Shown: piece after piece, positions 10,356 through 47,843 of the stretch
How positions within the stretch are numbered: position 1 is the first letter of the stretch
Layout of the letters: each line of letters begins with the position of its first letter
Virus record (IMG/VR): IMGVR_UViG_3300042328_001042
Location: 1 to 50,332 of that record
DNA length: 50,332 bases
Strand: one strand, 5' to 3'
Source of the DNA: a virus
Program-made: the position numbers and the translations under genes
The notes under the pieces: generated by a model
The model's input: the letters and a program-made list of their open reading frames with translations, nothing else
What the model was told of the DNA's origin: nothing
Databases searched by the model: none

Positions 10356-10358
10356 TGC

Positions 10359-10387
10359 TTTACTTTTAAACGAAGGTAAAGTATACT
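10359..10387 (+). promoter_or_regulatory. early promoter of the uvsX operon
   Basis: TTTACT 10359-10364, 17-base spacer, TATACT 10382-10387, then GGAGAATTG before the ATG at 10419. Confidence 0.9.
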
Positions 10388-10418
10388 TAGTTTTTAGTTT
10401 AAATCATTGGAGAATTGA

Positions 10419-10784
10419 ATGAGCGAAGAAGTTCAACAGCAACAGGCGGATGTCATCGATAACTGGTCGATCTGGGGAAGCACAGAAGCGAGCGTGTCTC
10501 TCCTGAAATATCAGGAAGATGAAGAAAATTATGTTTATCAGGGTATGATCAATTATCATTTATCCGAAGAACCCGCGCGAATGATTTCAACTCCGGTTGA
10601 CGTATGGGACGATTGCCCCTATTGTTTAATAAGACATATCATTGATAGATTATCAGATTTATATGATACCGTTGATACTGTTATAGTAATGGACGGCGAA
10701 ACCGGAGATCTTTTAGACGAAGAATACTCTATTGACGAAGCGTATGCTTACGAACGCGAAGAAACTGAAGAAGAGGTAGCATAA
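10419..10784 (+). CDS. acidic protein upstream of uvsX, unknown
   Basis: 121 residues, strongly acidic (C-terminus YEREETEEEVA), with one DDCPYCLIRHII segment. The stop overlaps the uvsX ATG (TAATG). Co-transcription with uvsX suggests a replication/recombination context, but no family is recognised. Confidence 0.7.
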   Translation: MSEEVQQQQADVIDNWSIWGSTEASVSLLKYQEDEENYVYQGMINYHLSEEPARMISTPVDVWDDCPYCLIRHIIDRLSDLYDTVDTVIVMDGETGDLLDEEYSIDEAYAYEREETEEEVA

Positions 10785-11878
10785 TGAGTTTATTGGAAAG
10801 AATTAAAAAGAATAGCACAATTAAAGAATCGTCAATATTATCGAGTTCCAAATTTTTTACCAAAAAAGATATGGTAACTACGCCGATTCCGGCATTGAAT
10901 ATTGCATTATCGGGTAGAATTGACGGTGGACTAACGCCTGGACTAACGTTATTTTGTGGGCCTTCTAAACATTTTAAATCGCTTTTTTCATTGATTCTTG
11001 CTAAATCGTATATGGACAAATACCCAGATTCTGTATTGGTTTTTTATGATTGTGAATTCGGTACTCCTGAATCTTATTTCGATTCATTGGAAATGGATAA
11101 AGAACGCATAATCCATACGCCGATCATGAATATGGAAGAGTTTAAGTTTGACGTTTTGCAACAATTGCAAGAAATCAAACGCGGCGATAAAGTCATTTTC
11201 GTCGTAGATTCCCTTGGTAATATGGCGTCAAAGAAAGAAATGGAAGATGCCATTGACGGTAAATCGGTACAGGATATGTCCCGCGCCAAACAGATGAAAT
11301 CTATTTTCAGAATGATCACGCCTTATCTAGTTAAGTATGACATTCCTATGGTCGCGGTTAATCACATCTACATGACGCAAGAGTTATATAGCAAACCCAT
11401 TGTATCAGGCGGGACTGGTGTGTATCTCTCTGCCGATAACATTTTTATTCTTGGCCGTCAACAAGAAAAAGACGGAAGCGAATTGGCGGGTTACAACTTT
11501 ATTATCAACGTTGAAAAGTCAAGACATTCTAGAGAAAAATCAAAGATTCCAGTTACCGTAAAATTTGAAGGCGGTATTAGTAAATGGTCTGGTCTATTAG
11601 AGATGGCGTTGGAATCGGGTCACGTAATTAAACCGAGTAATGGATGGTATTCTAAGGTTAATATAGTTACCGGAGAAATTGAAGATAAAAAATACCGCGT
11701 GAAAGATACCGATACAAAAGATTTTTGGATGCCTATCATTCAAGATAAAACATTTCAAGAATGGATCAAAAATAATTATCAAATTGCGACGGGTAATATT
11801 ATCTCATCTGATGATGAAATTGATAAAGAAATGGCGGCAATTGAAGATGAAGAATTTGGAGAAGAATATGCAGAATGA
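10784..11878 (+). CDS. uvsX: UvsX RecA-like recombinase
   Basis: 364 residues. The Walker A motif appears as GPSKHFKS, the form typical of T4 UvsX (GPSKSFKS), near residue 45. Walker B is VIFVVDSLGNM near 140, and the loop region around VSGGTGVYLSADNIFILGR follows. The C-terminus is acidic, as in UvsX. It forms ATP-dependent filaments on ssDNA for recombination-dependent replication. Overlaps the genes on both sides. Confidence 0.93.
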   Translation: MSLLERIKKNSTIKESSILSSSKFFTKKDMVTTPIPALNIALSGRIDGGLTPGLTLFCGPSKHFKSLFSLILAKSYMDKYPDSVLVFYDCEFGTPESYFDSLEMDKERIIHTPIMNMEEFKFDVLQQLQEIKRGDKVIFVVDSLGNMASKKEMEDAIDGKSVQDMSRAKQMKSIFRMITPYLVKYDIPMVAVNHIYMTQELYSKPIVSGGTGVYLSADNIFILGRQQEKDGSELAGYNFIINVEKSRHSREKSKIPVTVKFEGGISKWSGLLEMALESGHVIKPSNGWYSKVNIVTGEIEDKKYRVKDTDTKDFWMPIIQDKTFQEWIKNNYQIATGNIISSDDEIDKEMAAIEDEEFGEEYAE

Positions 11879-12185
11879 TTTTGAGTTTACCGTTGGTCAT
11901 AAAGTGATGGAGAATAAACATCATGAGATGCATGCAATTCAGTTGACTGATGAACCATACAATGGTATTATCTTTTCTTTTGGTGAAGTAACCTTCCCGA
12001 CTGATGGCGAACCAGATTCTGATGGCAATGTCACCTTAAAATTTGATTATGACATCCATGATGATGCTGGTATTGAATATAACAGAGAAGCATTTGAGAA
12101 ATATCTCGGCGACTTCTTGACTGAATTAATTATCTATGGCGTAAAAAACAATAACATCGCTTATTCTGGCGGTGTAGACGAGTAA
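11868..12185 (+). CDS. small acidic protein between uvsX and the helicase gene
   Basis: 105 residues from the ATG at 11868 (GGAGAAGAAT upstream, within the 3' end of uvsX). Beta-rich and acidic (FPTDGEPDSDGNVTLKFDYDIHDD). The longer open frame starts inside uvsX and is not used. Followed by a terminator. I do not recognise the family. Confidence 0.7.
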   Translation: MQNDFEFTVGHKVMENKHHEMHAIQLTDEPYNGIIFSFGEVTFPTDGEPDSDGNVTLKFDYDIHDDAGIEYNREAFEKYLGDFLTELIIYGVKNNNIAYSGGVDE

Positions 12186-12191
12186 CAGTTT

Positions 12192-12217
12192 GGGGAGTGA
12201 AACATCTCCCCTTTTTA
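12192..12217 (+). terminator. Rho-independent terminator
   Basis: GGGGAG (12192-12197) pairs with CTCCCC (12206-12211), followed by TTTTT. Ends the uvsX operon upstream of the helicase gene. Confidence 0.88.
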
Positions 12218-12233
12218 TTTTATGGAGTTAATT

Positions 12234-13628
12234 TTGAGAATTGAACAGACGATAATATCAAATTTAATAACCAGCGAAGAATTTGGTCGTAAAGTTATTC
12301 CGCATCTAAAGAAAGAATATTTCGCCGACAGGAAAGAATCCATTATATGTTCTATTATAATGAAATTCTTTGATACATATAATAAACCTGCATCAAAAGA
12401 AATTATCAATATTGAACTTGGTAATACAAAAGGTATCTCTGATAAAGAATTGTCCGAGTTTACAGATTATGTAAAAGAACTTTCGGTTGAACCTTCTAAC
12501 CAAGAATGGTTAGTTGTTGAGACAGAGAAGTTTTGTAAAGCACGTGCCGTTTATAATGCGATTTTAAAATCAATTAAAATCATCGAAGGCGCCGATAATC
12601 AGTTTACACAAGATGCGTTACCTTCGATTCTTTCTGATGCATTAGCGGTGTCTTTTGATAACAGCGTTGGACATGATTACTTAGAAGACGTTGAATCGAG
12701 ATATGAATTTTATCATAGACAAGAAGATAGAATTCCTTTTGATTTAGATATATTCAATAAAATTACTAAAGGCGGATTGCCTAAAAAGTCATTGTCAGTT
12801 ATTATTGCGTCAACAGGCGTTGGTAAATCTATTTTTATGTGCCATACTGCTGCCAACGTATTAAAGCAGGGTAAAAATGTTTTATACATTACAATGGAGA
12901 TGGCAGAAGAACGCATCGCGGAACGTATCGACGCTAATTTATTAGACGTGCCTTTATCAGATATTGGGACGTTGGATAAAAATACTTTTTTGACTAAAGT
13001 CCAACGGATATCTAAAAAGACGCAAGGTAAACTAATCGTAAAAGAATACCCGACGTCCTCGGCGCACGCGGGTCATTTTAGAGCGTTATTAGAAGAACTA
13101 AGAATTAAGAAAGGGTTCGTTCCTGATTTTATTTGTATTGATTATATCAACATCTGCGCGTCTCAACGTATCCGTAACGGTTCTGATAAAACGTATACTT
13201 ACGTTAAAGCAATCGCAGAAGAAATTCGCGGGTTGGCAGTTGAATATAATGTACCAATTCTCAGTGCCACGCAGACAAACCGCGAAGGTATGAGTAACTC
13301 GGACGTTGATATTACAAATACGTCAGAATCAATAGGTTTACCACAAACTGTTGATATGTTATTTGCTTTAATTGGTAATGAAGAATTAGACGCAATGAAT
13401 CAACAGATTGTTAAACAATTGAAAAACCGTTATAACGACGTAAATTACTACAAACGATTTGTAGTTGGTTTAGATAAATCTAAGATGAGATATTATGACG
13501 TAGAATCATCTGCGCAAACCAATCTTGCAGATTCCGGTCAACCGAAAAATGATACTCCATTGTTTGATAAGTCTACATTTGGAAGTCGCGCCAGACAAGA
13601 GGGATCGTTTAATGATTTTAAATACTAG
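12234..13628 (+). CDS. 41: replicative DNA helicase, T4 gp41 / DnaB type
   Basis: 464 residues from a TTG start. I prefer TTG 12234 to ATG 12222 because the string ATGGAG around 12222 looks like the ribosome-binding site used before many genes here (TTATGGAG). Walker A is ASTGVGKSIF near residue 200, Walker B is FICIDYINI near 300, and the DnaB-type segment ATQTNREGMSNSDVDITNTSES lies near 345. The hexamer unwinds DNA at the fork and partners the gp61 primase at 28865. No early promoter lies directly upstream, so transcription may read through the preceding terminator or use a site not recognised here. Confidence 0.92.
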   Translation: MRIEQTIISNLITSEEFGRKVIPHLKKEYFADRKESIICSIIMKFFDTYNKPASKEIINIELGNTKGISDKELSEFTDYVKELSVEPSNQEWLVVETEKFCKARAVYNAILKSIKIIEGADNQFTQDALPSILSDALAVSFDNSVGHDYLEDVESRYEFYHRQEDRIPFDLDIFNKITKGGLPKKSLSVIIASTGVGKSIFMCHTAANVLKQGKNVLYITMEMAEERIAERIDANLLDVPLSDIGTLDKNTFLTKVQRISKKTQGKLIVKEYPTSSAHAGHFRALLEELRIKKGFVPDFICIDYINICASQRIRNGSDKTYTYVKAIAEEIRGLAVEYNVPILSATQTNREGMSNSDVDITNTSESIGLPQTVDMLFALIGNEELDAMNQQIVKQLKNRYNDVNYYKRFVVGLDKSKMRYYDVESSAQTNLADSGQPKNDTPLFDKSTFGSRARQEGSFNDFKY

Positions 13629-13631
13629 ACT

Positions 13632-13660
13632 TTACTTTTTGGCATACATAGAGTATACTT
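13632..13660 (+). promoter_or_regulatory. early promoter of the modification island
   Basis: TTTACT 13632-13637, 17-base spacer, TATACT 13655-13660, then TTGGAGGAG before the ATG at 13684. Confidence 0.9.
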
Positions 13661-13683
13661 ATTGAACATTGGAGGAGAAAAAT

Positions 13684-15087
13684 ATGAAAGTGATTGTACT
13701 TAAACCGGAAGAAGTTGTTCCGCGTCCAGATTTGGTTGGAACTTGGTTAGATGAAACGCATTACCATACGTTGGTCGAAGAAGACATGGATTTGTATTTG
13801 CCGCCGGAATGTTCTGTGGGTTTAGAAGCAGGAACTGATGATTGCGGTAAAAAGTGTAATAATTGCGAGTCCGGACTGAGCGAAAAGAATATCGTATTCA
13901 AATTCCGTAAAAACTTCTTTACAGAAGAAGAAACTCTGTCCGCGTATGAAGGGTTGAAAGATGCTGCCATTCCAACTGAAAACAGAGGAACTGCGGCAGG
14001 TCCAAGAGAAGAAACATTGGGTAACAGAGAATGGGTTACATCATACCAAAATGAGATTTTAAATTGGTTTAAAAACGCTAAATCAAATGTGTTTGGAGAC
14101 GACCCCATTCAAGAAATTATTGAAAAATATAAAACGATTGATAAAGACCAAGCGTCCAACAGAAATAACGTGTGGTCTATAATTTCAACTAAAGAAGAAA
14201 ATTTTGTTTTTGATGAATGGGTCGAAAAGGTTCGTAAACTATCTCCGGACTCGCAGGCAAAAGAAGCGAACCGCGTTGAAGATAAATTGATTTGCAAAAC
14301 AACTTATGCAAATTCAGTTCTTTCCGGTATCGCTGGGTGGTATGACCGTTACCCAAGAATTCCGTTCGGTCGCGCGACCACTTATACAAGAGATAACCCA
14401 GAAAAGTTTGCTAAATCGTACCCGTATTTGCAAAGATTATCTGGGGCATTTAAAGAAATGTTGCCTTGGCGTTATCATAATCAAATGGAAGCGGCATCTA
14501 AAATTGATCCCAGATTTTTAGTTCCGGAAACTCCATTTAGCACTATTACGGTTAATCGTAATTTCAGAACCGCTGGTCATTACGACCCAGCGAATATGGA
14601 AAATGGATTTGCCAATATATGCGTATTCTCTAATAATGCAAATTATGATGGCGCATATTTGGTATTTCCCGAAATCGGTTACGCTGTTAATATCCGTCCC
14701 GGCGATTTGTTGTTTGTTAATAATCAAGCAGGTCTACACGGCAACACAGAATTGATTCTGAATGACGAATCTGCAGAACGAATATCTGCAATCGCTTTCT
14801 TTCATGAAGGTATGTTAGAACTTGGTTCTTATGATTATGAAGAAACAAGAAGAACGTTCGTGGAATCAAGAATGAAAAATAAAGAACACCCGTTGCAAAG
14901 AGACAGATGGAATGGCGTTAGTCCTGGAATGTGGGCAGATAATCCAGATAAAAAGCATGATTATTCCGCTGCTAAAGAATGGTATGATTATCTAAAATCT
15001 AAACCGCAAGGCGATGAATGGTTAATCAAACATCATCCTTGGTTGAAAGAAGCGTTTGAGAATAACGGATTAGAAGATTTCTTTTGA
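13684..15087 (+). CDS. TET/JBP-family 2-oxoglutarate/Fe(II) dioxygenase (predicted DNA base hydroxylase)
   Basis: 467 residues. The double-stranded beta-helix core spans about residues 285-390: STITVNRNFRTAGHYDPAN supplies the H-x-D iron ligands (H299, D301), VFPEIGYAVNIRPGDLLFVNN is the family's central block, LHGNTEL gives the distal histidine (about H352), and ERISAIAFFHEGM gives the 2-oxoglutarate arginine (about R366). TET/JBP enzymes oxidise the methyl group of 5-methylcytosine or thymine inside DNA. The N-terminal 270 residues are family-specific, with a cysteine cluster (DDCGKKCNNCESG) near 58-70 that could bind zinc. It heads an island with a 5hmU-DNA-kinase-like gene, so thymine is the favoured substrate (inference). 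Confidence 0.88.
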   Translation: MKVIVLKPEEVVPRPDLVGTWLDETHYHTLVEEDMDLYLPPECSVGLEAGTDDCGKKCNNCESGLSEKNIVFKFRKNFFTEEETLSAYEGLKDAAIPTENRGTAAGPREETLGNREWVTSYQNEILNWFKNAKSNVFGDDPIQEIIEKYKTIDKDQASNRNNVWSIISTKEENFVFDEWVEKVRKLSPDSQAKEANRVEDKLICKTTYANSVLSGIAGWYDRYPRIPFGRATTYTRDNPEKFAKSYPYLQRLSGAFKEMLPWRYHNQMEAASKIDPRFLVPETPFSTITVNRNFRTAGHYDPANMENGFANICVFSNNANYDGAYLVFPEIGYAVNIRPGDLLFVNNQAGLHGNTELILNDESAERISAIAFFHEGMLELGSYDYEETRRTFVESRMKNKEHPLQRDRWNGVSPGMWADNPDKKHDYSAAKEWYDYLKSKPQGDEWLIKHHPWLKEAFENNGLEDFF

Positions 15088-15092
15088 TAACA

Positions 15093-15125
15093 AATGGCGG
15101 TTGAAATATACCGCCATTATTTTTA
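15093..15125 (+). terminator. hairpin terminator or attenuator after the dioxygenase gene
   Basis: An 8-bp perfect stem (AATGGCGG 15093-15100 with CCGCCATT 15111-15118) followed by ATTTTTA. It lies between the dioxygenase gene and the next gene, so it may set a lower level for the rest of the island. Confidence 0.75.
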
Positions 15126-15135
15126 CGGGTTAGTT

Positions 15136-16170
15136 ATGGCGAACATTCCAAATGATTTAGGCGGTGATTGGCGGATAGACAAATTTGTCGACTACCAACA
15201 TTTCGTTCCGCCGATTTATCAATCAACTCTTACTCAATATGCAATTGATAATCAATTAAACGACAGAGATTGTACAGTTCTTTCTTGGTATATGTCTGTA
15301 ACGTACAGCGAAATATCTGCTATATGGATGCATCAAGTTTTACCTATCTCCGAGTTACATAAAGCGGATGATTGGTTTGAAAAACATAAAGATATAATGA
15401 TATTTGGGTCTTCCAAAAAGTACAATCGGTATAAAGGAAGATTCAATTATTTAATGAAACAGTTTCTTGACGTTTACGGAACCGAACCCGAAAAGAAACT
15501 CTATGAAGTTATAGGAACTGGAACTGAGAAAGAAATGTATGATAGAGCGTTAAAACAAAATCTAGCGATAAAAGAATGCGGTAGATTTAGCGCCGAGTTA
15601 TTCAACGAATGTTGTTTGTTTTTATCTGAAGCAGGTTTCATGAACGCCAAGATGTCATCGCCCAATTCAGTTGATTGGGATAAAGGCGCTAATCTTACCA
15701 GTTGTATGTTTAATTTATTGCGCAGAGACGATTTAGCGGATGAATACGATAAATTGGGTAAACTTACGGATGAAATGAAAACTTATATACCGTTGTTTAA
15801 TTCAGAACTGATTAGAATTAGAGATAAAATCTGGACGAAATATCCAGAACGTCAAGTTGATATACCGTTATTTACGCCTAAACTTTGTTCGTTTAGAAAT
15901 TTATTTAAATGCACTCGATATGCTCCGTTTCATGCAGATAGACAGTTAGAACATATTAGAAAATACGAAGAATGGTATCCTGAGTTAAGTCATATATGGG
16001 ATGGACTGTTTGATATACGTTCTAAAACTATGCCGGAACATTTTTTAGGCGAAAAGAATAATTGGAACGGGATAAGAAAAGAACGTAAATATCTTTGGGT
16101 GAATAGAGGGTTGACTGGCGTTGAACCAGAATCAAATTATCCAGAATCGACGCTGGAGGAATTTTGTTAG
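15136..16170 (+). CDS. helical DNA-hypermodification protein, resembling the aGPT-pyrophosphorylase / DNA amino-acid-transferase group
   Basis: 344 residues. The open frame starts at 15094, but that region is the terminator stem, so the ATG at 15136 is used. Mostly helical; blocks worth noting are SWYMSVTYSEISAIWMHQ near 52-70, CGRFSAELFNE near 154, and FKCTRYAPFHADRQLEHIRKYE near 258-280. The CGRFSAELFNE and DRQLE patterns correspond to YFAFKLADMIE and QEIETLLCDYRKVCKG in the next gene, so the two appear to be distant relatives. In hypermodified-thymine phages, helical proteins of this kind act on phosphorylated hydroxymethyluracil. The assignment is by context and remembered family features. 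Confidence 0.6.
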   Translation: MANIPNDLGGDWRIDKFVDYQHFVPPIYQSTLTQYAIDNQLNDRDCTVLSWYMSVTYSEISAIWMHQVLPISELHKADDWFEKHKDIMIFGSSKKYNRYKGRFNYLMKQFLDVYGTEPEKKLYEVIGTGTEKEMYDRALKQNLAIKECGRFSAELFNECCLFLSEAGFMNAKMSSPNSVDWDKGANLTSCMFNLLRRDDLADEYDKLGKLTDEMKTYIPLFNSELIRIRDKIWTKYPERQVDIPLFTPKLCSFRNLFKCTRYAPFHADRQLEHIRKYEEWYPELSHIWDGLFDIRSKTMPEHFLGEKNNWNGIRKERKYLWVNRGLTGVEPESNYPESTLEEFC

Positions 16171-17114
16171 CAACCGTTTATTATGATGAAGAACCCGTTG
16201 AATATGAAATGCTTGACGGGTTTCGCGCGTTTTCGTATAAACACATAGCATTGGGCGATGTAGATCCTATCTACGCAATGATTCGTAATTCCGCGTTAAA
16301 CTATAACGAGAAGAAACGGTTTATATTTTCTCATCTTATGGTTTACGATTTGAAGACCAGTATAGCGTTATCGGACATAAAAGATGATCAATTATATTAT
16401 GATAAGTTATTGTATTACTTCCAAGAAGCAAAAGTCGGCAAAGATAGAAAAGACGTTGCTTCCAGAGAAACCAATATAAAGTCTAGAATGTTTGGAACTC
16501 AACTTCCAAAGATGAGATTACGGTCACCGGAAGATTGGGTCGAAGATACTATACAAGCAACCCAATCTTCTAAAAGTTGGGGCGTAAGTTTAAAAACCGG
16601 TAAAAATATACCTACGTTTGGTGAATACTTCGCGTTTAAACTCGCCGACATGATCGAAACTATATTTGATGTAGATGAATACACCGTTACCTATAATAAA
16701 GAGTTCATAGACTCTATACCAAGAGGTTCGTTGACTGGGTATGAAATGACCAGAACAGGTTCGACTCATAAGTTTAGATCAAAAGAAGAAATAAGACGTT
16801 GTTCTTTAATGTCTAAGTTTTATAACATTCATTTAGAATTCTTTTCTTCGATTAACTGCCCGCACAAACCAAGCAGAGCGATAGGCGTTCAAGAAATAGA
16901 AACTTTGCTTTGCGATTACAGAAAAGTTTGTAAAGGGACTTTACTTTATGGCGATAAAGTCCTAAAATTAAAGGATGGTATAGAAGTTAACAAAAAGTTA
17001 GAAACTGCGCAAAGACTGTTGGTTGGCGCTCAACCGTTATTGACCAGAAGAACCGAGTTATTGGAACTTGGTATTATGAACATTAATGAAACGCATTGTA
17101 ATCATTGGAGATAG
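16164..17114 (+). CDS. second helical DNA-hypermodification protein, TTG start
   Basis: 316 residues. TTG at 16164 lies 3 bases after GGAGGA and overlaps the previous stop; no ATG fits as well. Helical, with conserved-looking blocks RSPEDWVEDTIQ, FGEYFAFKLADMIE, PRGSLTGYEMT and QEIETLLCDYRKVCKG. It shares layout with the preceding gene and is followed at once by the kinase gene. A role as transferase or pyrophosphorylase on a phosphorylated hydroxymethyl base is inferred from the island; no catalytic residue can be named with confidence. Confidence 0.6.
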   Translation: MLATVYYDEEPVEYEMLDGFRAFSYKHIALGDVDPIYAMIRNSALNYNEKKRFIFSHLMVYDLKTSIALSDIKDDQLYYDKLLYYFQEAKVGKDRKDVASRETNIKSRMFGTQLPKMRLRSPEDWVEDTIQATQSSKSWGVSLKTGKNIPTFGEYFAFKLADMIETIFDVDEYTVTYNKEFIDSIPRGSLTGYEMTRTGSTHKFRSKEEIRRCSLMSKFYNIHLEFFSSINCPHKPSRAIGVQEIETLLCDYRKVCKGTLLYGDKVLKLKDGIEVNKKLETAQRLLVGAQPLLTRRTELLELGIMNINETHCNHWR

Positions 17115-17115
17115 T

Positions 17116-17658
17116 ATGAAAAAAATTATAGCAGTCGGTGGCCGTCCAGGAACGGGTAAAACAACTTTGTTTAGAGAGTTCATTAAACAATACGAATGGG
17201 ATAAAGTTGAACCTAAAAAGTTAGTTCCAGCGTTGTACAACAAAGAATTGGATTTGTACATTCTTGGTAAATACGAAGAAGGCGATACTTTTGCCGGCAC
17301 AGACAAAATGTCGATGGCGTGCCAACCAAATGTACAAGAGTTTATCATTGAAACGACTTCTAACGTGTTATACGAAGGCGACCGTATATTTAACAAGTCA
17401 TTTCTTGAATTTGCATCGGAACAACCGAATGTCGATCTCAGCATAATCTATTTAAAAGTTTCAGACGATACGTTACAAGAACGGTATGAAGAACGCGGGA
17501 GTAACCAATCAGAAACTTTTTTGAAAGGCAGAGAAACTAAGTATAATAACATTTTATCTAATTTTGATTTAATGTCATACATTACAGAGTTTGAAAATTC
17601 GAACACAGAACAACAAACTATTATATTAAACTTTTTAAAATCAAAATTCGGCGTATGA
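17116..17658 (+). CDS. P-loop kinase resembling 5-hydroxymethyluracil-DNA kinase
   Basis: 180 residues from the ATG at 17116 (TTGGAGATAGT upstream). Walker A is GGRPGTGKTT at residues 8-17. TFAGTDKMSMACQP near 58-71, VLYEGDRIFNKSF near 88-100 and the C-terminal ETFLKGRETKYNNI near 134-147 agree with what I recall of phage 5-hmdU DNA kinases (ViI gp67, M6 gp54), which transfer phosphate to hydroxymethyluracil in DNA. The dioxygenase at 13684 could create that substrate. A general nucleotide kinase is the alternative, but the EGDRxFN block argues against it. Confidence 0.78.
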   Translation: MKKIIAVGGRPGTGKTTLFREFIKQYEWDKVEPKKLVPALYNKELDLYILGKYEEGDTFAGTDKMSMACQPNVQEFIIETTSNVLYEGDRIFNKSFLEFASEQPNVDLSIIYLKVSDDTLQERYEERGSNQSETFLKGRETKYNNILSNFDLMSYITEFENSNTEQQTIILNFLKSKFGV

Positions 17659-17659
17659 T

Positions 17660-19165
17660 ATGATTTGTAAACATTGCGGTAACGGTAATACCAATAAAAA
17701 CGGGAAATTTGTTCTCAACGATGGAACCATTAAATATCGTTATAAATGTAACGACTGTAACAAAACTTTCTCTACTACAGATAATTCTGATAAATTCGCA
17801 CCGGAAGTGGCGTTGACGAACAAACGATATGTAATTTCATCTGTGCAGAATAACACGGAAACCAATTATGATTTTTTGGCTTCGTTGGAGTTATATTGCG
17901 AACGTAATAAAGCGGAACTAATTATCATACCCACCGTCCACCAAGAAGTTTTATATCCGTTTCCGCTGATGTCTTGGGATTGCGACGAGAAATACCTAAG
18001 GCGCGAAAAGTTCAGTATGAATGGTATGGTGAACTGTATAGCTAATATAAAAATAAATGTTGCAGCCGAAAATCCGCTGGGCGGTTTAGATTCTTTATCA
18101 AAGGGTAAAACTCTAATAGTTCCTCATAACCAATTACAAATGAGATCATTACCGGTCGCGGTTGATGAGCATCCAGCGATTCTTTGCACAACTGGAACTA
18201 TCTCCGAACGAAATTACATAAAAAGTAAATCCGGCGAGAAGGCTGAGTTTAACCATTCGAACTCGGCTGTGTTTTTAGATTTCAATGATGATAGTTATCA
18301 TCTTAGAATATTGAACGGCGATGAGAATGGCGGGTTTTATGATATAGACGGTTATTATTTGGTCAATAAATTTACAAAATTGTCTGAAGTTGAAGCGTTG
18401 ATAACCGGAGATGAGCATGTAATCGTTAACTGTTCGGAAGTTTCCAACGCGACCTATCATGACGCTAAAAGTATAGTAAACACCCTTAGACCGAAGAAAA
18501 TTATTCGTCACGATGTGTTAGATTGTTTTACTATATCTCACCATCATAGAAAAGATAATTTTATACAATATTCTAAATTTATCAACAATATGAACAGTAT
18601 TGAAGAAGAACTAGCGGATACAATTAAATACATTGAAGAAACAACGCCGGAATGGTCTGAAACTTACATAGTTTCATCTAATCATCACGATCACCTCAAG
18701 CGTTGGTTGACGGAAGTTGATCCGAAAGTCGAACCTTGGAACGCAAAACTTTTTCATAAATTGACGTATATGATGTTAGATGAAATCGATAAAGCCAAAG
18801 AACAAGGTAAGTTTTTGGTTCCGGATCCGTTTAAACTGTACGTAGAAGACGGTGGAACTAAAATCAAATTTGTCGGGAGAAATCAATCGTTCAAAATTTT
18901 TGATATTGAGTTGTCGAACCACGGAGATAAAGGCGCAAACGGTTCTAGAGGTTCTTTATCGCAGTTCTCTAAATTTTCCGAAAAAGTTGTAATCGGACAT
19001 TCTCACACGCCTGGAATCAACAAAGGCGCGTATTCCGTCGGAACGAGCACTTCAAAGAATTTAGAATACGTTAGCGGACCATCGTCTTGGATGAATACGC
19101 ATTGCGTCATCTACCCTAATGGTAAACGACAATTGATCAATATAATTAAAGGAAGATGGAAATAA
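17660..19165 (+). CDS. zinc-ribbon metallophosphoesterase resembling phage T5 protein A1
   Basis: 501 residues. Residues 1-40 form a zinc ribbon (CKHCGN ... YKCNDCNKTFS) of the kind seen at the N-terminus of some transposases. The remainder carries calcineurin-like phosphoesterase motifs: TGDEHVIVNCSE near 250, SSNHHDHLKRW near 343, ELSNHGDKGANGSRGS near 414-430 and GHSHTPG near 450. The end (GPSSWMNTHCVIYPNGKRQ) matches my memory of T5 A1, required for second-step transfer and host DNA degradation. It lies two bases after the kinase gene, so it may use host DNA lacking the modification as target (inference). Confidence 0.72.
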   Translation: MICKHCGNGNTNKNGKFVLNDGTIKYRYKCNDCNKTFSTTDNSDKFAPEVALTNKRYVISSVQNNTETNYDFLASLELYCERNKAELIIIPTVHQEVLYPFPLMSWDCDEKYLRREKFSMNGMVNCIANIKINVAAENPLGGLDSLSKGKTLIVPHNQLQMRSLPVAVDEHPAILCTTGTISERNYIKSKSGEKAEFNHSNSAVFLDFNDDSYHLRILNGDENGGFYDIDGYYLVNKFTKLSEVEALITGDEHVIVNCSEVSNATYHDAKSIVNTLRPKKIIRHDVLDCFTISHHHRKDNFIQYSKFINNMNSIEEELADTIKYIEETTPEWSETYIVSSNHHDHLKRWLTEVDPKVEPWNAKLFHKLTYMMLDEIDKAKEQGKFLVPDPFKLYVEDGGTKIKFVGRNQSFKIFDIELSNHGDKGANGSRGSLSQFSKFSEKVVIGHSHTPGINKGAYSVGTSTSKNLEYVSGPSSWMNTHCVIYPNGKRQLINIIKGRWK

Positions 19166-19168
19166 TTC

Positions 19169-19196
19169 TTTACTTTTAAGAACATCGTAGTATACT
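19169..19196 (+). promoter_or_regulatory. early promoter
   Basis: TTTACT 19169-19174, 16-base spacer, TATACT 19191-19196. Confidence 0.85.
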
Positions 19197-19201
19197 ATAC
19201 T

Positions 19202-19223
19202 TGAGGTTGGTTGACAGACCTCA
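19202..19223 (+). promoter_or_regulatory. leader hairpin
   Basis: TGAGGT (19202-19207) pairs with ACCTCA (19218-19223) directly after the -10 box of the preceding promoter, so it would fold at the very 5' end of the transcript. It could stabilise the mRNA or bind a regulator. No T run follows. Confidence 0.5.
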
Positions 19224-19256
19224 TTCCTCATTTTACTAACTAATTATGGAAATATT

Positions 19257-19463
19257 ATGAAATTTCAAGCGAAACGCGATCAAATATTAGAATCAACTCG
19301 TTCCGGAGCTCGTATCCTTATTTTAGGCGTTGATCGTTCCGGAGAAGACAGTTTGCATTGGCCTGTTGAAATTGTGAATTTGTTTTCTGACGGAAACCCT
19401 ATGAAAAAGTCGAAAAGAACTGTATTCCATGATTCAATTCGACGTTGGTATGCGATTTCTTAA
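19257..19463 (+). CDS. small basic protein, unknown
   Basis: 68 residues, single-gene transcription unit between its own promoter and terminator. Contains RSGARILILGVDRSGEDS and a basic C-terminus. No family recognised. Confidence 0.6.
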   Translation: MKFQAKRDQILESTRSGARILILGVDRSGEDSLHWPVEIVNLFSDGNPMKKSKRTVFHDSIRRWYAIS

Positions 19464-19483
19464 CGGTTTATTATTGAACGACG

Positions 19484-19508
19484 AAGGGAGCCTCGGCTCC
19501 CTTTTTTA
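19484..19508 (+). terminator. Rho-independent terminator
   Basis: AAGGGAGC pairs with GCTCCCTT around a 4-base loop, followed by TTTTTT. It separates early from late genes. Confidence 0.92.
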
Positions 19509-19513
19509 TTGTT

Positions 19514-19521
19514 TATAAATA
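19514..19521 (+). promoter_or_regulatory. T4-type late promoter
   Basis: Exact TATAAATA directly after the terminator and 27 bases before the first virion-protein gene. Confidence 0.8.
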
Positions 19522-19547
19522 TATAAACATTTTCTGGTTTATAAACA

Positions 19548-19895
19548 ATGAAAACATTTAAAGAATTTTTAGAACTCCATATAACTGAAAATTTTATTGG
19601 CGAAGATGATATACCGTCAACAGAATATCTAACCGAAGAACATGAAAATGTTACATTAAATAAACCTTTTAGAACGCCAGGCGAGCGAAAAAAATTCGCT
19701 GTATATGTAAAAAATAGTTCCGGTAAAGTTGTTATCGTTCGTTTCGGCGATCCCAACATGGAAATAAAACGGGACGACCCAGAACGCAGAAAATCATTTA
19801 GAGCAAGACACAGTTGCGATACAGCAAAAGATAAAACTACCCCGAGATATTGGTCATGTCACCAATGGAGAGCATCTGCCAAGGTTGAAGATTAA
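19548..19895 (+). CDS. virion-associated protein with capsid-targeting-like N-terminus
   Basis: 115 residues. It starts MKTFKEFLELHITE, closely resembling the capsid-targeting sequence of T4 internal proteins (MKTYQEF type), and ITE fits the (L/I)-x-E cleavage rule of the T4 prohead protease. The C-terminal block, FGDPNMEIKRDDPERRKSF followed by RARHSCD...RYWSCHQW, recurs in many marine T4-like structural proteins as I recall. Late promoter upstream; TAATG overlap with the next gene. Role in the head is inferred. Confidence 0.75.
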   Translation: MKTFKEFLELHITENFIGEDDIPSTEYLTEEHENVTLNKPFRTPGERKKFAVYVKNSSGKVVIVRFGDPNMEIKRDDPERRKSFRARHSCDTAKDKTTPRYWSCHQWRASAKVED

Positions 19896-20722
19896 TGAAT
19901 GAATTAAATGATTTCTTAAAATTAATTGCCGAAGGTAAACAGGATTATAAGCAAAATGATCCTGTCGGTAAGAAATTGGAAGAAGTTAAAGAGAATGTCA
20001 AGACAGACTTAAATTCTTTGTTTGCGCAGTTATCTGAAATTGTTATCGAAGATCCGGTTTCTATAATCAAGGAAGACGATGAAACAGTTTTTCAACCTTC
20101 ACTTGAAGAAGTCAGTATACAGGAACAAGTGGCACAAGAAGAAGTACCCTTCCCCACGCCAAAAACAGAAGCTGATGCAATTGCGGCGTATGCTGCCAAT
20201 TTTAAGAATGCATCGTTCCAACAACCAGACGTTCCACGAGTTGATCCCACTATCAAGGCAGTGCAGGATAAACTTAAATTCTTGGAACAATGGGTAGGTA
20301 AAATATCGGTTGCTGGCCCAGGCGGCGGTGAAGTCAATTTAAGATGGTTGGATGATGTCTATAGACCCTCTATCTATGATGGTCGATATTTAAGATATAA
20401 CGATTCATTGAAGAAGTTCGAGTTTGCAGAAGTCAATCCTCATGATATTACTTACACCACTACATTAGTCACCACACCAACCTATACAGTCAATGGCCAA
20501 GATTATTATATTGGCGTTGATTATGCTGGCTCAGTTACTATCGCATTACCAACAACGCCAAGTTCAGGCAGAATGCTAATAATAAAAGATGAATCTGGTG
20601 ATGCAGAAAATAATCCAATTACTGTACTAGGTAACGTCGATAATGATGTGGGTGGATTTATCATTCAAATTAATAACGGTGCAATACAAATGATTTATAG
20701 AAATGGTTGGAGAATAGTGTGA
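19895..20722 (+). CDS. virion structural protein
   Basis: 275 residues. The start MNELNDFLKLIAEGK could also be a targeting segment (IAE). Residues about 30-80 are acidic and low-complexity, and from about 95 a helix leads into a Gly-rich, beta-predicted C-terminal half (DDVYRPSIYDGRYLRYNDSLKKF...), typical of fibre or head decoration domains in marine T4-like phages. Translationally coupled to the following gene. Confidence 0.65.
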   Translation: MNELNDFLKLIAEGKQDYKQNDPVGKKLEEVKENVKTDLNSLFAQLSEIVIEDPVSIIKEDDETVFQPSLEEVSIQEQVAQEEVPFPTPKTEADAIAAYAANFKNASFQQPDVPRVDPTIKAVQDKLKFLEQWVGKISVAGPGGGEVNLRWLDDVYRPSIYDGRYLRYNDSLKKFEFAEVNPHDITYTTTLVTTPTYTVNGQDYYIGVDYAGSVTIALPTTPSSGRMLIIKDESGDAENNPITVLGNVDNDVGGFIIQINNGAIQMIYRNGWRIV

Positions 20723-34757: not shown

Positions 34758-34779
34758 CTTTTTTCTGTCAAAAAAGTTC

Positions 34780-34808
34780 TTTACTTCCTCTGTCGACTGC
34801 GGTATACT
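34780..34808 (+). promoter_or_regulatory. early promoter
   Basis: TTTACT 34780-34785, 17-base spacer, TATACT 34803-34808, followed by the leader CCTGTCAATTAAATTATGAGG. Confidence 0.92.
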
Positions 34809-34840
34809 AACCCTGTCAATTAAATTATGAGGAAGTGAAA

Positions 34841-40524: not shown

Positions 40525-40950
40525 ATGTTATTGACCGATATTAGAGCAGACCTAGATGCTGCTAGAAAAGAGAAAAACCAAACATTACTAACATTATTAA
40601 CCACGTTGTATTCTGAGTGTGCAATGGTTGGTAAAACTAAACGCAATGGTGATTCGACTGATGAAGAAGTATTATCAATCATCAGAAAGTTTAAAATTGG
40701 CGTTGAAGAAATTGCAAAAATAAAAGGTATAAATACTGATATTGAATATGAATTATCGGTATACGAAAAGTATTTACCATCAATGATTAGTGATGAAGAA
40801 TTGCTGATTATTATTGATGAGATTGTTAATAGTCTGGCTGAAAAATCCCCTAAACAAATGGGTAAAGTCATGACAGAATTAAAGAATAAATACTTGGGTA
40901 GATACGATGGCACTTTAGCAAGTAAAATCGTTAAAGAAAAGTTAGTATAA
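40525..40950 (+). CDS. YqeY/GatB-tail-domain protein
   Basis: 141 residues. The pattern DEEVLSIIRKFKIGVEEIAKIKG...YEKYLPSMISDEELLIIIDEIV...MGKVMTELKNKYLGRYDGTLASKIVKE is the YqeY family, homologous to the tail domain of GatB that contacts tRNA in the amidotransferase. Here it immediately precedes the tRNA/ncRNA cluster. A role with tRNA is inferred from the family and position only. Confidence 0.82.
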   Translation: MLLTDIRADLDAARKEKNQTLLTLLTTLYSECAMVGKTKRNGDSTDEEVLSIIRKFKIGVEEIAKIKGINTDIEYELSVYEKYLPSMISDEELLIIIDEIVNSLAEKSPKQMGKVMTELKNKYLGRYDGTLASKIVKEKLV

Positions 40951-42302: not shown

Positions 42303-42427
42303 TTTAGATACTCCGTTTAAGATTTAATATGGGACAGCCCGGTTATTCCGTTCTGGGTTTCAAAATACTGAGAATATTTTGATTACCATATTATTTATCA
42401 TTTTTAATTTTTCAGAATGATAAATAC

Positions 42428-42435
42428 AATAAATA
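42428..42435 (+). promoter_or_regulatory. possible late promoter (AATAAATA)
   Basis: One-mismatch late box, with GATAAATA ten bases earlier, directly before the tRNA-like element at 42443. The stretch 42303-42427 is AT-rich and shows nothing else. Confidence 0.4.
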
Positions 42436-42442
42436 GATTAAT

Positions 42443-42514
42443 GGGGAATGGGCAAGGACTCAGGGGATATTGGCCATATTTCAAGGAACGGGGTAGTACC
42501 GTTATTCTCCACCA
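42443..42514 (+). ncRNA. tRNA-like RNA ending in ACCA (unusual tRNA candidate)
   Basis: Acceptor GGGGAAT/ATTCTCC (one G-T), then A and encoded CCA. Immediately inside is a perfect 5-bp stem with 7-base loop in T-arm position (AACGG-GGTAGTA-CCGTT), a 5-base variable region, and a 17-base anticodon arm (GGATA-TTGGCCA-TATTT, two G-T). The dimensions are canonical, but the D arm is only about 12 bases without a good stem and the T loop lacks TTC. If read as tRNA, the anticodon is GGC (Ala). Confidence 0.45.
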
Positions 42515-42519
42515 GTTTA

Positions 42520-42654
42520 TGAAGGTATATGCCTAGTGGCAACACCGCCAATATATACAGGGTTCCGTGGCAGGGTATATACGAGGTTTGATGTCACTCA
42601 GTTGACTACTTGAAAGGAACGAATGTCGCGTAACGAACGACTATACCTTCACCA
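42520..42654 (+). ncRNA. large cloverleaf RNA ending in ACCA
   Basis: A 10-bp closing stem TGAAGGTATA (42520-42529) with TATACCTTCA (42642-42651), followed by CCA. Inside: hairpin TGCC-TAGT-GGCA (42530-42541) in D-arm position; a 7-bp arm TATATAC (42552-42558) with GTATATA (42575-42581); hairpin GTCA/TGAC near 42592-42605; and GTCG (42625-42628) with CGAC (42638-42641) stacked on the closing stem. Layout mirrors a tRNA with an enlarged variable region, 135 bases in all. Confidence 0.5.
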
Positions 42655-42678
42655 TTATCATTAACAAGTGAATATATT

Positions 42679-42873
42679 ATGACAAACATTACAATAACAC
42701 TCGATGATGATCAAATTGATGACATTGTTGCGAAAGCGTTGAAAGAACATTATTCCCTTTGCAAGATGAATTCTGCTTATTATGATCCAAATCTGATTCC
42801 GGCACTTGAAGTAGTGCTATCCGAATACCTATCCCCTAATGATTATAACAACTTTATGAAGGCATTGAAATGA
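42679..42873 (+). CDS. small protein, unknown
   Basis: 64 residues, acidic (ITLDDDQIDDIVAKALKEHYSLC). ATGA-coupled to the co-chaperonin gene. Probably a conserved phage protein; no function known. Confidence 0.6.
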   Translation: MTNITITLDDDQIDDIVAKALKEHYSLCKMNSAYYDPNLIPALEVVLSEYLSPNDYNNFMKALK

Positions 42874-43142
42874 CCAAATTTATTCCATTACGAAAACAAG
42901 TTCTGATTGCACAAGTAGCAAGAAAAACGACGACTGATTCTGGTATCATTATTGAACATGCTCGATCAGTATTGGATAATGAAACTGCCAGAGTATTGGC
43001 GGTTGGTTCAGAAGTAACCGAAGTTGCCGTTGGCGATGAAGTTCTGGTTGCATGGGAAAAGGGCAGAGTGATTACCATTGATGGTGAACAGCGCATTTGT
43101 ATCCTCGAAGAACATATCGTTGCTGTGTTAGAAAAAGATTAA
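42870..43142 (+). CDS. GroES-like co-chaperonin
   Basis: 90 residues, the usual length of Cpn10. FIPLRKQVLIAQVARKTTTDSGIIIEHA contains the start and the mobile-loop region (TTTDSGIII), then ARVLAVGSEVTEVAVGDEVLVAWEKG and ILEEHIVAVLE form the beta-barrel end. T4 uses gp31 as a GroES substitute for folding its capsid protein; this protein probably has the same task with host GroEL. Confidence 0.88.
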   Translation: MTKFIPLRKQVLIAQVARKTTTDSGIIIEHARSVLDNETARVLAVGSEVTEVAVGDEVLVAWEKGRVITIDGEQRICILEEHIVAVLEKD

Positions 43143-43166
43143 ACTATAACCATGAGGAAACATAAA

Positions 43167-43436
43167 ATGAAAAACGTATTAATCATCGCAGTATTGGCAA
43201 TTTTATCAACTGCTTGTGCATCCACCTCGGATATCCATTCGTTGCAATCTCAAGTAGATATTATTAAAGTAAAACAAGACGCATTAGCATCTGATTTGTC
43301 CGTATTGAGCGGTAGTATTAAATCCGCATCTAAAAAAGCAGATGATGCTAAACTTGCATCCGAACAAGCATTGGAAATGTGTAAACAAATTAATGCTAAA
43401 CTAGATCGAGTTTTCAAAAAAACGCAATTTAAATAA
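43167..43436 (+). CDS. outer-membrane lipoprotein resembling OprI/Lpp
   Basis: 89 residues from the ATG at 43167 (GAGGAAACATAAA upstream; the ATG at 43152 has no site). Signal MKNVLIIAVLAILSTAC with lipobox LSTAC, Cys17. The mature part is a single continuous alpha-helical heptad region (SLQSQVDIIKVKQDALASDL... KKADDAKLASEQALEM) like Pseudomonas OprI and enterobacterial Lpp. The C-terminus ends in TQFK, so a peptidoglycan-linking lysine is possible. Likely trimeric at the outer membrane. Confidence 0.8.
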   Translation: MKNVLIIAVLAILSTACASTSDIHSLQSQVDIIKVKQDALASDLSVLSGSIKSASKKADDAKLASEQALEMCKQINAKLDRVFKKTQFK

Positions 43437-43983: not shown

Positions 43984-44129
43984 GTAACAGTTGGCACGGT
44001 GGTAAGGGTTCAAAACCAAGGTCGGTATCAGACAGAAAGAAGTTTGAAGACAATTGGGATGCCATTTTCAATAAAAAGAAAGTAGACGAGTCTAAAAAAG
44101 ATGTCAAAGAAAACAATCCTGGTAGTTGA
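43980..44129 (+). CDS. small conserved phage protein
   Basis: 49 residues (MSNSWHGGKGSKPR...KKFEDNWDAIFNKKK). The MSNSWxGGKGSxPR start and NWDxIF centre recur, as I recall, in tiny proteins of many large phages; function unknown. Overlaps both neighbours, the CheY-like gene by 29 bases. Confidence 0.7.
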   Translation: MSNSWHGGKGSKPRSVSDRKKFEDNWDAIFNKKKVDESKKDVKENNPGS

Positions 44130-44472
44130 TGATTCTGCTACCATTGTGATGAGTCTGCGCAACAATCTTGAGATTGCTGGTTATGATGTTGAGTCTGCCA
44201 GCAATGGTCAAGAAGCGTTGGATAAGTTGAAGTCTGGGGTTAAACCCAATCTGATTATTACTGACGTCAATATGCCAGTAATGGGCGGATTAGAATTTAT
44301 CAAAGAATCTCGGAAGTTAGCGAGTTGTCGATTTACGCCAATTTTGATACTAACTACTGAATCTAGTACAGAACGTAAGACTGAGGCAAAAAGTCTGGGT
44401 GCTACTGGTTGGTTGATCAAACCGTGTAGCGGTACTGATCTAATCAACATTGCGAAAAAACTTTTGCCTTGA
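44101..44472 (+). CDS. CheY-like response-regulator receiver
   Basis: 123 residues, a complete stand-alone receiver domain: acidic pair DD near residues 10-11, phospho-acceptor Asp in IITDVNMPVMGG near 58, the Thr in ILTTESS near 87, and Lys in LIKPCS near 108. There is no output domain, as in CheY. CheY-P binds the flagellar switch. Located two genes before a flagellin homologue, so motility control is likely (inference). Confidence 0.92.
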   Translation: MSKKTILVVDDSATIVMSLRNNLEIAGYDVESASNGQEALDKLKSGVKPNLIITDVNMPVMGGLEFIKESRKLASCRFTPILILTTESSTERKTEAKSLGATGWLIKPCSGTDLINIAKKLLP

Positions 44473-44484
44473 TCAAAAAAGTTC

Positions 44485-44513
44485 TTTACTTCTAGTAAGA
44501 ACTGCGGTATACT
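44485..44513 (+). promoter_or_regulatory. early promoter
   Basis: TTTACT 44485-44490, 17-base spacer, TATACT 44508-44513, then the leader CCTTGTCAATTAAATTATGG. Confidence 0.92.
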
Positions 44514-44543
44514 AACCTTGTCAATTAAATTATGGAGTTAAAA

Positions 44544-44933
44544 ATGTCTACAAGATCAACAATTGCGGTGCAACATTTAGATGGTACAGTTTCTTCAATC
44601 TATTGTCGTTATGATGGTAGTTTATCTGGCGTTGGGGTGACGTTAGCGAGATGGTATAATCAGATGGATAAAGCAGAATATTTGATTACTGCTGGTAGCG
44701 TTCAAGAAGTGCATGATTCCGTCGAATATACGTTTCAAGACGATAACCGTTATCTCGAAGATGCAATTACCTATTCAACTTTAGATGAATATTTTGATTC
44801 TGATGATTTCCAAGAATGTAATTATTTATGGACAGAACATGATGATGAAAATGGAAATCGTGTTGATGGTTGGTTGTATATAGGATATGAATATGCCGAC
44901 TGGACTCCAGTTAGTGGTTTATTAGATGCTTGA
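44544..44933 (+). CDS. conserved phage protein of unknown function
   Basis: 129 residues from the ATG at 44544. MSTRSTIAVQHLDGTVSSIYCRYDG is a start I recall from a widespread phage protein family without function. Acidic C-terminal half. Overlaps the flagellin-like gene by 8 bases, so the two are co-expressed early. Confidence 0.75.
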   Translation: MSTRSTIAVQHLDGTVSSIYCRYDGSLSGVGVTLARWYNQMDKAEYLITAGSVQEVHDSVEYTFQDDNRYLEDAITYSTLDEYFDSDDFQECNYLWTEHDDENGNRVDGWLYIGYEYADWTPVSGLLDA

Positions 44934-45561
44934 TATTAGTGGTTATCTTAGATTAAATCTGTCAAGGGTTCAATCTAACGTCAATGATTCAATGTATAAG
45001 TTATCAACGGGACAGAAAATCAATAGTTCGAAGGACAACCCAGCATTGTATGCAATATCAAAGTCTATTTCTAGGGGTATCAGTATGGATAACGTAGCGA
45101 TCAATAACTTAAATACTGCTAACCAATTTCTGAGCAACAGAGAATCTATTCTTGGTCAGATTATCGATAATCTACAATATGATAATCCTGATACAAAATC
45201 TGTTGATGATTTATTATCCAGTATGAATAAAGACGTATCAATCAGCATGGATAATGATGGCGAGTTTCTTATACCGAAAGTATCAGTCGATTTGACAAAA
45301 CCTGTATCAGAAATTGTTTCGGATCTTCAATCTGAATTGATAAAGGTTGGTTCTTTACGGCAAGCGACTGACGATAAAATAAGTTCTGTTACGGAACGAA
45401 TGAATATGAATCAGACAAGATACCATCAAATGGTAGATGTTGATGTAGAAGAAGAGATGTCAAAATTGACTAAAAATCTTGTGTTACAAAAGGTCGGTTA
45501 TAATATGATAAATCTATATAATCAAAGTTTATCCAATGTGTTAATGTTATTGAGAGGTTAA
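44926..45561 (+). CDS. flagellin homologue
   Basis: 211 residues. The N-terminal part (LNLSRVQSNVNDSMYKLSTGQKINSSKDNPALYAISKSI... NNLNTANQFL) follows the flagellin D0/D1 pattern, including LS(T/S)GxxINSxKDxPAxxAIS. The C-terminal 60 residues (RMNMNQTRYHQMVDVDVEEEMSKLTKNLVLQKVGYNMI) match the flagellin C-terminal D1/D0 helices. The variable middle domain is reduced to about 50 residues. It would be a minimal flagellin able to enter the flagellar export and assembly path. Confidence 0.88.
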   Translation: MLDISGYLRLNLSRVQSNVNDSMYKLSTGQKINSSKDNPALYAISKSISRGISMDNVAINNLNTANQFLSNRESILGQIIDNLQYDNPDTKSVDDLLSSMNKDVSISMDNDGEFLIPKVSVDLTKPVSEIVSDLQSELIKVGSLRQATDDKISSVTERMNMNQTRYHQMVDVDVEEEMSKLTKNLVLQKVGYNMINLYNQSLSNVLMLLRG

Positions 45562-45562
45562 T

Positions 45563-45760
45563 ATGGCAGTAAAACGTAAAGCAAATTCAACGAGAACTAA
45601 AACTGATAAAGTTAGACTTGGACCATTGAGTCTAGTACAATTACAGTCTCTGTTCGATAAAGCAAATCGCGGTAAAGATAAAGATAAAATTCAGCGTAGA
45701 ATGGCAACAATGTTCAAACGCGGTTTATCATTACCTGTTGAAGAGACGGCAGAAGTGTAA
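45563..45760 (+). CDS. small basic protein, unknown
   Basis: 65 residues, basic N-terminus (MAVKRKANSTRTKTDKVR), then SLVQLQSLFDKANRGKDKDKIQRR. TAATG overlap with the next gene. Possibly nucleic-acid binding. Confidence 0.6.
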   Translation: MAVKRKANSTRTKTDKVRLGPLSLVQLQSLFDKANRGKDKDKIQRRMATMFKRGLSLPVEETAEV

Positions 45761-45885
45761 TGTTAAAGGAACTTCTAATCATTGCGGTATTATTGATTAG
45801 ATTCAGTTGTCGGTCTTTCTACACTTTCTGTAAACGAATGGATAGAAAGATTGACAAGTTCCTAGATTATTGGGAAAATCTGTAG
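45760..45885 (+). CDS. small membrane-anchored protein
   Basis: 41 residues: N-terminal hydrophobic segment (LLIIAVLLLIRF) and a basic amphipathic tail (CKRMDRKIDKFLDYW). Coupled to the previous gene by TAATG. Last gene before the structured region. Confidence 0.5.
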   Translation: MLKELLIIAVLLIRFSCRSFYTFCKRMDRKIDKFLDYWENL

Positions 45886-46368
45886 TCATCAAGGATTGGT
45901 ATTGGATAGAGTCAATGGATTTTGCGCCAATCCTAACTCTACGGCGACAGTACCAATCCTTGATGGTCTACCCAAGTGTAGGTAAGAGCGACGAAGTTGC
46001 TACCATCAACTAGAATAAGACACGTGATTCCGCTTTTCCGTCGGAGCCAGTTGTTGAATAAACGGAACCTAAGCTGGTCGGGTAAGTACCAGCACCATCA
46101 CGCATGTTGACTGCCTTTATAAACAAAGCGGCGGGTGAGGTAAATCAGGTTCGATGTCTGGCCGTATGATGTGTACGGATAGCCGCCAGTCAACAGCCGT
46201 GATGGTTAATGCGTAGGCTGATACGCTACGCGGTATGTCCTGCTGGTGCAGAAAAGTTACCCGTCACAGGAGAGAATTATCGGCGACTGCAAGCTGTCTG
46301 TATATCAATAGCGAGAAAGGACAAAGCCAGAGATCAGTGCTGGTAATCATCACCCTATTTTTAATATA
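45886..46368 (+). ncRNA. gene-free region of about 480 bases with dense nested inverted repeats; candidate structured RNA
   Basis: No gene fits on either strand, and composition is more GC-rich than the surroundings. Helices seen: 18 bp 45887-45904 with 45948-45965, enclosing TAGAGT/ACTCTA and GGATT/AATCC; TTGATGGT 45960-45967 with ACCATCAA 46002-46009; TTCCG/CGGAA 46028-46032 with 46063-46067; GCTGGT/ACCAGC 46073-46093; ACCATCACG 46094-46102 with 46198-46206, continued by GTTGACTG 46106-46113 with 46187-46194 and GGCGG/CCGCC; CCGTA/TACGG 46162-46178; GCGTAG/CTACGC 46211-46231; TGTCCT/AGGACA 46236-46241 with 46318-46323. The end CCCTATTTTT could stop transcription. Confidence 0.6.
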
Positions 46369-46383
46369 ATGAGGATAAATGAA

Positions 46384-47769: not shown

Positions 47770-47792
47770 GCTTTTTAGAGCGAAAAAAGTTC

Positions 47793-47821
47793 TTTACTTC
47801 CTCGTTCGACTGTGGTATACT
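47793..47821 (+). promoter_or_regulatory. early promoter
   Basis: TTTACT 47793-47798, 17-base spacer, TATACT 47816-47821. Confidence 0.92.
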
Positions 47822-47843
47822 AACTTAATTATGGAGATAAAAA

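Follow-up and report, generated by a model that had tools for sequence, protein, structure and literature searches.

A shortened flagellin homologue in an early-type operon of a large phage: a candidate defective subunit

Phage flagellins are already known, as the prophage-encoded FliCP and as full-length proteins specified by large viral contigs. FliCP belongs to a temperate phage of Enterobacter and replaces the filament of its host, as set out in those sections of its description on which we draw (PMC13418256). Beyond that paper, a search for lytic-phage flagellins among open-licence PMC papers found none that is relevant, and the literature search found no paper on a phage CheY. Two cellular proteins also serve for comparison. 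Campylobacter FlaC is a flagellin encoded by a cellular gene; it is secreted, modulates immunity and has no use in motility (PMC4863622, in the portion consulted). CheY4 of V. cholerae fails to pull down with FliM and has been proposed to be a phosphate sink (PMC3774744, likewise in part); the same portion of that paper describes the Y106W variant of E. coli CheY as hyperactive.

The window analysed here is the complete virus record IMGVR_UViG_3300042328_001042, 50,332 bases, linear, a fragment that comes without a completeness estimate. Its genes for replication (ligase, split DNA polymerase, helicase, A1-like protein and ribonucleotide reductase) match phage families, and their homologues are found, with order largely kept, in the Synechococcus phage BUCT-ZZ01 (156 kb) and in viral records that are 126-178 kb long: the carrier of the shortened flagellin is a large phage. 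An 11.7-kb record (L002) is 99.99% identical to positions 8671-20346 of the window and stops short of the flagellin and receiver locus. A TET/JBP-family oxygenase is encoded at 13669-15087 (PF12851, E 2e-24), and the phage may modify its bases. No integrase match (PF00589) was found in the 50-kb fragment.

The stretch at 39.4-50.3 kb is accessory and hypervariable; among its ORFs, GroES alone found a homologue when six relatives were compared. The even GC content of the stretch gives no hint that the contig is chimeric. It also holds a YqeY-like protein at 40525-40950 (PF09424, E 1.4e-20) and tRNA genes in the region 41146-41438/41433-42302 (Asn and Ser by ARAGORN, a third by Rfam), which adjoin a reverse-strand endonuclease-like gene and a gene-poor stretch at 42310-42680; at 42870-43436 the GroES-like protein is followed by an Lpp/OprI-type alanine-zipper lipoprotein. 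At gathering level Rfam finds only tRNAs in the window and, at lax level, just microRNA-type and snoRNA-type matches that lie far under the cut-off. The locus itself is laid out in the following order, with one gene between receiver and flagellin, as the earlier note had it:

44101-44472, plus strand: stand-alone CheY-like receiver, MCP-linked and CheY4-like in type, in the transcription unit before that of the flagellin (Pfam, PDB)
44480-44514, plus strand: early-type phage promoter before 44532 and the flagellin gene, a perfect copy of the motif
44532-44933, plus strand: first gene of the flagellin operon, phrog_1987 (E 4.4e-15), no function assigned
44926-45561, plus strand: shortened flagellin homologue, 211 residues, laid out as ND0 and the start of D1, a short linker, then the end of D1 and CD0 (Pfam, PDB flagellins, alignments)
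45563-45760, plus strand: 65-residue ORF directly 3' of the flagellin gene (ORF list)

Judged by its sequence, the product of 44926-45561 is a true flagellin homologue that has been shortened. Flagellin_N matches residues 9-84 (E 6.2e-11, 42.9 bits against a gathering threshold of 26.6) and Flagellin_C residues 127-209 (E 2e-7, 31.7 bits against 23), both in one protein and both above their Pfam cut-offs. The best flagellin model scores 50.8 bits and the FlgL model TIGR02550 28.4 bits; none of the 19 NCBIfam flagellin families listed reaches its cut-off with the 211-residue protein, these cut-offs presupposing full length. The earlier note had reckoned a best match to some non-flagellin phage structural protein as evidence against a flagellin. 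What leads the PDB matches is a set of solved flagellins (phmmer, E 3.6e-8), ahead of FlgL-type models, and BFVD contains no viral structure that matches at E ≤ 0.001. AlphaFold models the protein with a mean pLDDT of 67 without an alignment and 76 with 15 relatives (AF2, 16 sequences), predicting helices at 3-28, 39-83, 90-100, 127-170 and 174-210; confidence is low at residues 101-120, and the exact alignment of residues 85-125 is uncertain. Flagellar filaments lead the Foldseek PDB matches of the model (E 2.1e-6). In VIA-align, residues 1-211 superpose on filament flagellins with Z about 13, and a FlgL structure is close too (5ziy, Z 12.3 across 136 residues); with long helices a Z below about 13 may carry little meaning, and the claim of homology therefore rests on sequence. 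The aligned flagellins share 17-30% identity with the protein, whose reading frame is intact; its codon usage (0.183) falls inside the range of the core genes (0.103-0.374, mean 0.222, sd 0.067), which marks it as a resident coding gene.

As first read, this was a minimal flagellin that had kept both conserved ends and given up the variable domain. The length of 211 residues, the two ends and the near-absence of a variable or surface domain all stand, but part of the conserved D1 has been lost as well. The INTN start is absent, with an in-frame TAG immediately before the ATG. In an alignment of the window protein with 15 flagellins from bacteria and viral contigs, the segment LQRxRELxVQ, which lies between the ND1a helix and the rest of D1, is gapped solely in the window protein, and so it is again in a second alignment of six sequences that includes five short flagellins (228-238 residues). 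Some eight further residues are gone upstream of the last D1/D0 turn. Window residue 85 aligns with chain residue 90 of Salmonella 1ucu, which places the start of the gap at FliC about 89-96; by Salmonella numbering the missing segment starts near 89-90. A 2003 paper reportedly (going by its title) found the TLR5 site to be required for protofilament formation and motility; we take that site to be FliC 89-96, about where the gap starts here.

Short bacterial flagellins (228-238 residues; loci L362, L200, L201 and L202) are of near-minimal length and have ends like those of the phage protein, but they keep INTN and LQRxRE[LI] or LQRMNEL (LKRLYEI in L200), both of which the phage protein has lost. 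Two of them, of 228 and 229 residues, belong to an ordinary flagellar cluster at L362, where the genes of FlaG, FliD and FliS come after them. Shortness alone therefore does not imply a defect, and it is the lost segment, not the length, that marks the phage protein out. Among 193 viral and plasmid loci (the window's own included) the shortest flagellin otherwise has 268 residues, with pieces set aside (edge-cut ORFs in L090 and L113, a 116-residue ORF beside one of 314 in L147 and a 155-residue ORF in L098). In a further set (L194-L273, 108 ORFs) the shortest have 223 residues (L246, without a normal start), then 238, 238, 238 and 244.

The motif AGTTCTTTACTT-N16-TATACTA, which we take to resemble T4 early promoters, has 13 matches in the window with up to three mismatches, 12 of them on the plus strand, where 0.03 would be expected; 380-414, 34775-34809 and 47788-47822 are among the sites. 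The perfect copy at 44480-44514 stops 17 bases 5' of the start at 44532. An early promoter ahead of the flagellin gene had been claimed on less, and the motif is now the stronger for its recurrence; early action of the 44480 promoter we infer from the likeness to T4 early promoters. Matches to a T4-type late promoter, TATAAATA, number 9 against 8.7 expected and are uninformative. Since the early-type promoter lies downstream of the receiver gene, the flagellin operon alone stands behind it. The first gene of that operon, a member of phrog_1987, has homologues in T4-like and jumbo phages, and there is an 8-base overlap between its stop and the flagellin start (ATGCTTGA). The 65-residue ORF that follows has no Pfam match. 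Immediately 3' of the operon there are about 490 gene-free bases (45880-46370) that are predicted to be strongly structured as RNA (z -3.35 over their full length, -7.3 over the first 96 bases) and that match no Rfam family; this is possibly a large phage non-coding RNA, as a candidate.

The receiver is, as the earlier note said, a full stand-alone domain with its catalytic residues: its 123 residues match Response_reg (Pfam, E 1.9e-24) with D10, D11, D55, T85 and K107 at CheY spacing, and it has no output domain. Its W104 occupies the position of CheY Y106. The best PDB matches, V. cholerae CheY entries 4hnr and 4h60 that are presumably CheY4, score 108 bits against at most 66 for the listed E. 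coli CheY chains, and the receiver lies below the cut-off of the flagellar-motor CheY equivalog NF007901 (66.3 against 189 bits). At E ≤ 1e-26 it has matches in 92 of 369 Gammaproteobacteria-class genomes, the best at 59-60% identity, and an MCP-signal protein adjoins all six of the best relatives that were tested (L274, L275, L284, L285, L286 and L288). A relative at 56% identity (L290) lies, by eye, between FliA/STAS-like and CheA-like genes, so that an origin of the receiver in a flagellar cluster is possible. Ten pattern matches to it in viral_contigs yielded no confirmed relatives, and its codon usage (0.076) is just under the core range. V. cholerae CheY4 resembles the phage receiver in standing alone, in having W at the CheY Y106 position and in carrying GATGWL[IV]KP; unlike it, CheY4 is a cellular protein encoded in chemotaxis cluster III (PMC3774744, in the part consulted). 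Because E. coli CheY Y106W is hyperactive, the tryptophan alone does not decide the role of the receiver. Action through the motor switch, an earlier suggestion, has lost ground: the six tested relatives sit beside chemoreceptors, and V. cholerae CheY4 fails to bind FliM according to the consulted part of the same paper. The receiver is a separate gene of the accessory region, and its product would most likely act on a CheA-type kinase of the host, as a phosphoryl sink or as a decoy, and not as a motor-switch protein.

Receiver and flagellin had been put forward as a pair, and as a two-gene system they were considered and rejected. A promoter separates the two genes, placing them in different transcription units, and the 50 related records carry neither, so the pair is not a unit. 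(These records are the larger or closer of 84 loci, L002-L085, many of them fragments; the relatives are distant, at most 51% in the A1-like protein. The receiver query has matches elsewhere, which provides a positive control.) Response_reg is also absent, at E ≤ 1e-5, from all 17 flagellin-bearing viral records. Absence of the pair from all relatives, which that survey found in these 50 records, had been named beforehand as a sign of random recent capture. The two proteins may nonetheless share a target in the motility and sensing machinery of the host.

No close homologue of the 211-residue flagellin was found across the phage collection, viral_contigs, the genome scan and the class-level search. 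The phage collection has no relative at E ≤ 0.01 and three matching records at E ≤ 10 (best E 0.03, a B. pumilus phage); single-protein patterns found none in viral_contigs, and the family of G055 has none in 60 at E ≤ 1e-8. At class level (E ≤ 1e-5) flagellin matches occur in 53 of 369, mostly N-terminal. The earlier note's question of a donor lineage has an answer of sorts: the best cellular matches are mostly Beta- and Gammaproteobacteria among the matches listed (at least 594 stretches).

The N-terminal region of flagellin carries export information, and its C-terminal helix is bound by the chaperone FliS and the filament core. Since the phage protein keeps both, it should enter the host's route of flagellin export and assembly; since it lacks the D1 segment (FliC about 89-96) for protofilament contacts, it should then stall export or cap the growing filament. 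Our best reading is that a flagellin was captured from a proteobacterial lineage and then cut down, and that the shortened protein would be produced early in infection and act as a defective subunit, poisoning filament export or assembly or serving as a decoy, with the infected cell ceasing to build flagella. The phage might benefit through host protein synthesis saved, motility lost or the receptor of flagellotropic competitors removed. We hold this reading tentatively and rate it somewhat short of probable. Conservation of both ends argues for it, as do the early-type promoter and an operon shared with a phage gene; the 228-229-residue flagellins of a bacterial flagellar cluster argue against it, as do a model that fits filament subunits no worse than any other structure and the full-length flagellins of large contigs, which suggest that some phages supply working subunits. 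Interference with the filament, among the roles offered at the outset, is the most plausible one, as a candidate drawn from sequence; a change of filament surface against flagellotropic competitors is weakened because the surface domain is nearly absent. A more specific version, a "suicide flagellin" that would act early as a dominant-negative subunit, retaining the export and core helices, dropping the protofilament contact segment and shutting down host flagella, is possible but doubtful.

The protein might instead stay in the cytoplasm and never enter a filament, soaking up FliS (or FliW, shifting CsrA), with a drop in flagellin export or a reset host regulon as the result. The well-conserved C-terminal D0 helix would suit such titration, and the model matches the flagellin in 5maw, a FliS complex, over residues 36-171 (Z 12.2, a stretch that ends before that helix), but the N-terminal region is equally conserved and would not be needed for pure FliS binding; we consider this unlikely, if still a serious contender. 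Replacement of the host subunit by a working one, so that the filament becomes thinner or different and either flagellar epitopes are hidden or swimming is altered, has the precedent of FliCP (in the consulted part of PMC13418256), the recurrence of full-length flagellins in large viral contigs and the ordinary cluster of short flagellins at L362 on its side. The missing contact segment and INTN start speak against it, as do the almost absent surface domain and the lack of any TldR-like gene in the 50-kb fragment (no match with PF07282 as query), and a lytic cycle would leave little time for rebuilding filaments; it is distinctly unlikely.

The two genes might also be cargo that serves no selected function, flagellin and receiver having been acquired separately from hosts in a hypervariable region and now decaying; this would accord with their absence from the 50 relatives' records, the solitary GroES homologue of this stretch and the low codon usage of the receiver. 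A decaying copy should show stops or a recent donor, however, and this frame is intact at such low identity, keeps both conserved ends, has phage-like codon usage and stands behind an early-type promoter: cargo is improbable. Helical hairpin proteins are common in virions, and a virion or tail component could reuse the flagellin coiled coil; with the gene in an early-type operon, no PHROG structural family listed for the protein, and the BFVD and PDB results already given, such a use is highly improbable.

Were the poison reading true, the phage would disable the flagellum with a broken copy of the very subunit from which it is built; this way of taking over the host would be simple and testable, and it could also serve as a tool for finding which part of flagellin D1 filament growth needs. 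A suicide flagellin, if real, would represent a structural-mimic class of effectors that block motility or exclude superinfection.

Profile scans of viral_contigs gave 20 flagellin relatives and then 133 (80 kept), with patterns that require an intact KLSxGxxIN or DDxAGxAI motif, so that strongly diverged flagellins would escape. Many matches we read as bacterial fliC from the margins of prophage records. A lone flagellin of 270-285 residues stands amid phage-type genes in L104 (142 kb), L108 (189 kb) and L099 (301 kb), where neighbours match PHROG polymerase, helicase, ligase and protease families. Full-length flagellins in viral contigs include:

L099, 9950-10801
L104, 9956-10768
L108, 9953-10810
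also in L115, L119, L143, L145 and others

Those of the large contigs appear spirochaete-like or Firmicute-like by sequence, which would imply other hosts. Flagellar rod and hook domains are absent from the 17 flagellin-bearing viral records; Terminase_6N is present in just 3 (2 above cut-off), so that this family leaves the identity of those records unsettled. A 301-residue, full Hag-like flagellin is encoded at L093:3401-4306, in the B. pumilus phage record of Bacillus phage EZ-2018a (CP027117).

Set beside the described systems, the window protein is like Campylobacter FlaC in lacking most of D2/D3; the D1 of FlaC, however, resembles that of TLR5-activating flagellins, and the window protein is without that D1 segment (PMC4863622, in the portion consulted). 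With FliCP it shares a phage origin and conserved ends of D0/D1 type, but FliCP, as far as the consulted sections describe it (PMC13418256), forms filaments, has a complete D0/D1 together with large outer domains, and shares its prophage with a partner, the RNA-guided repressor TldR, whereas the window protein has no outer domain and has lost part of D1, and no PF07282 match was found in the 50-kb fragment. The full-length flagellins of L099, L104, L108, L115, L119 and L145 are, like it, lone genes in large virus records; unlike it, they have 270-289 residues and a complete D1. A suicide flagellin would belong to this wider and largely undescribed set of large-phage flagellins.
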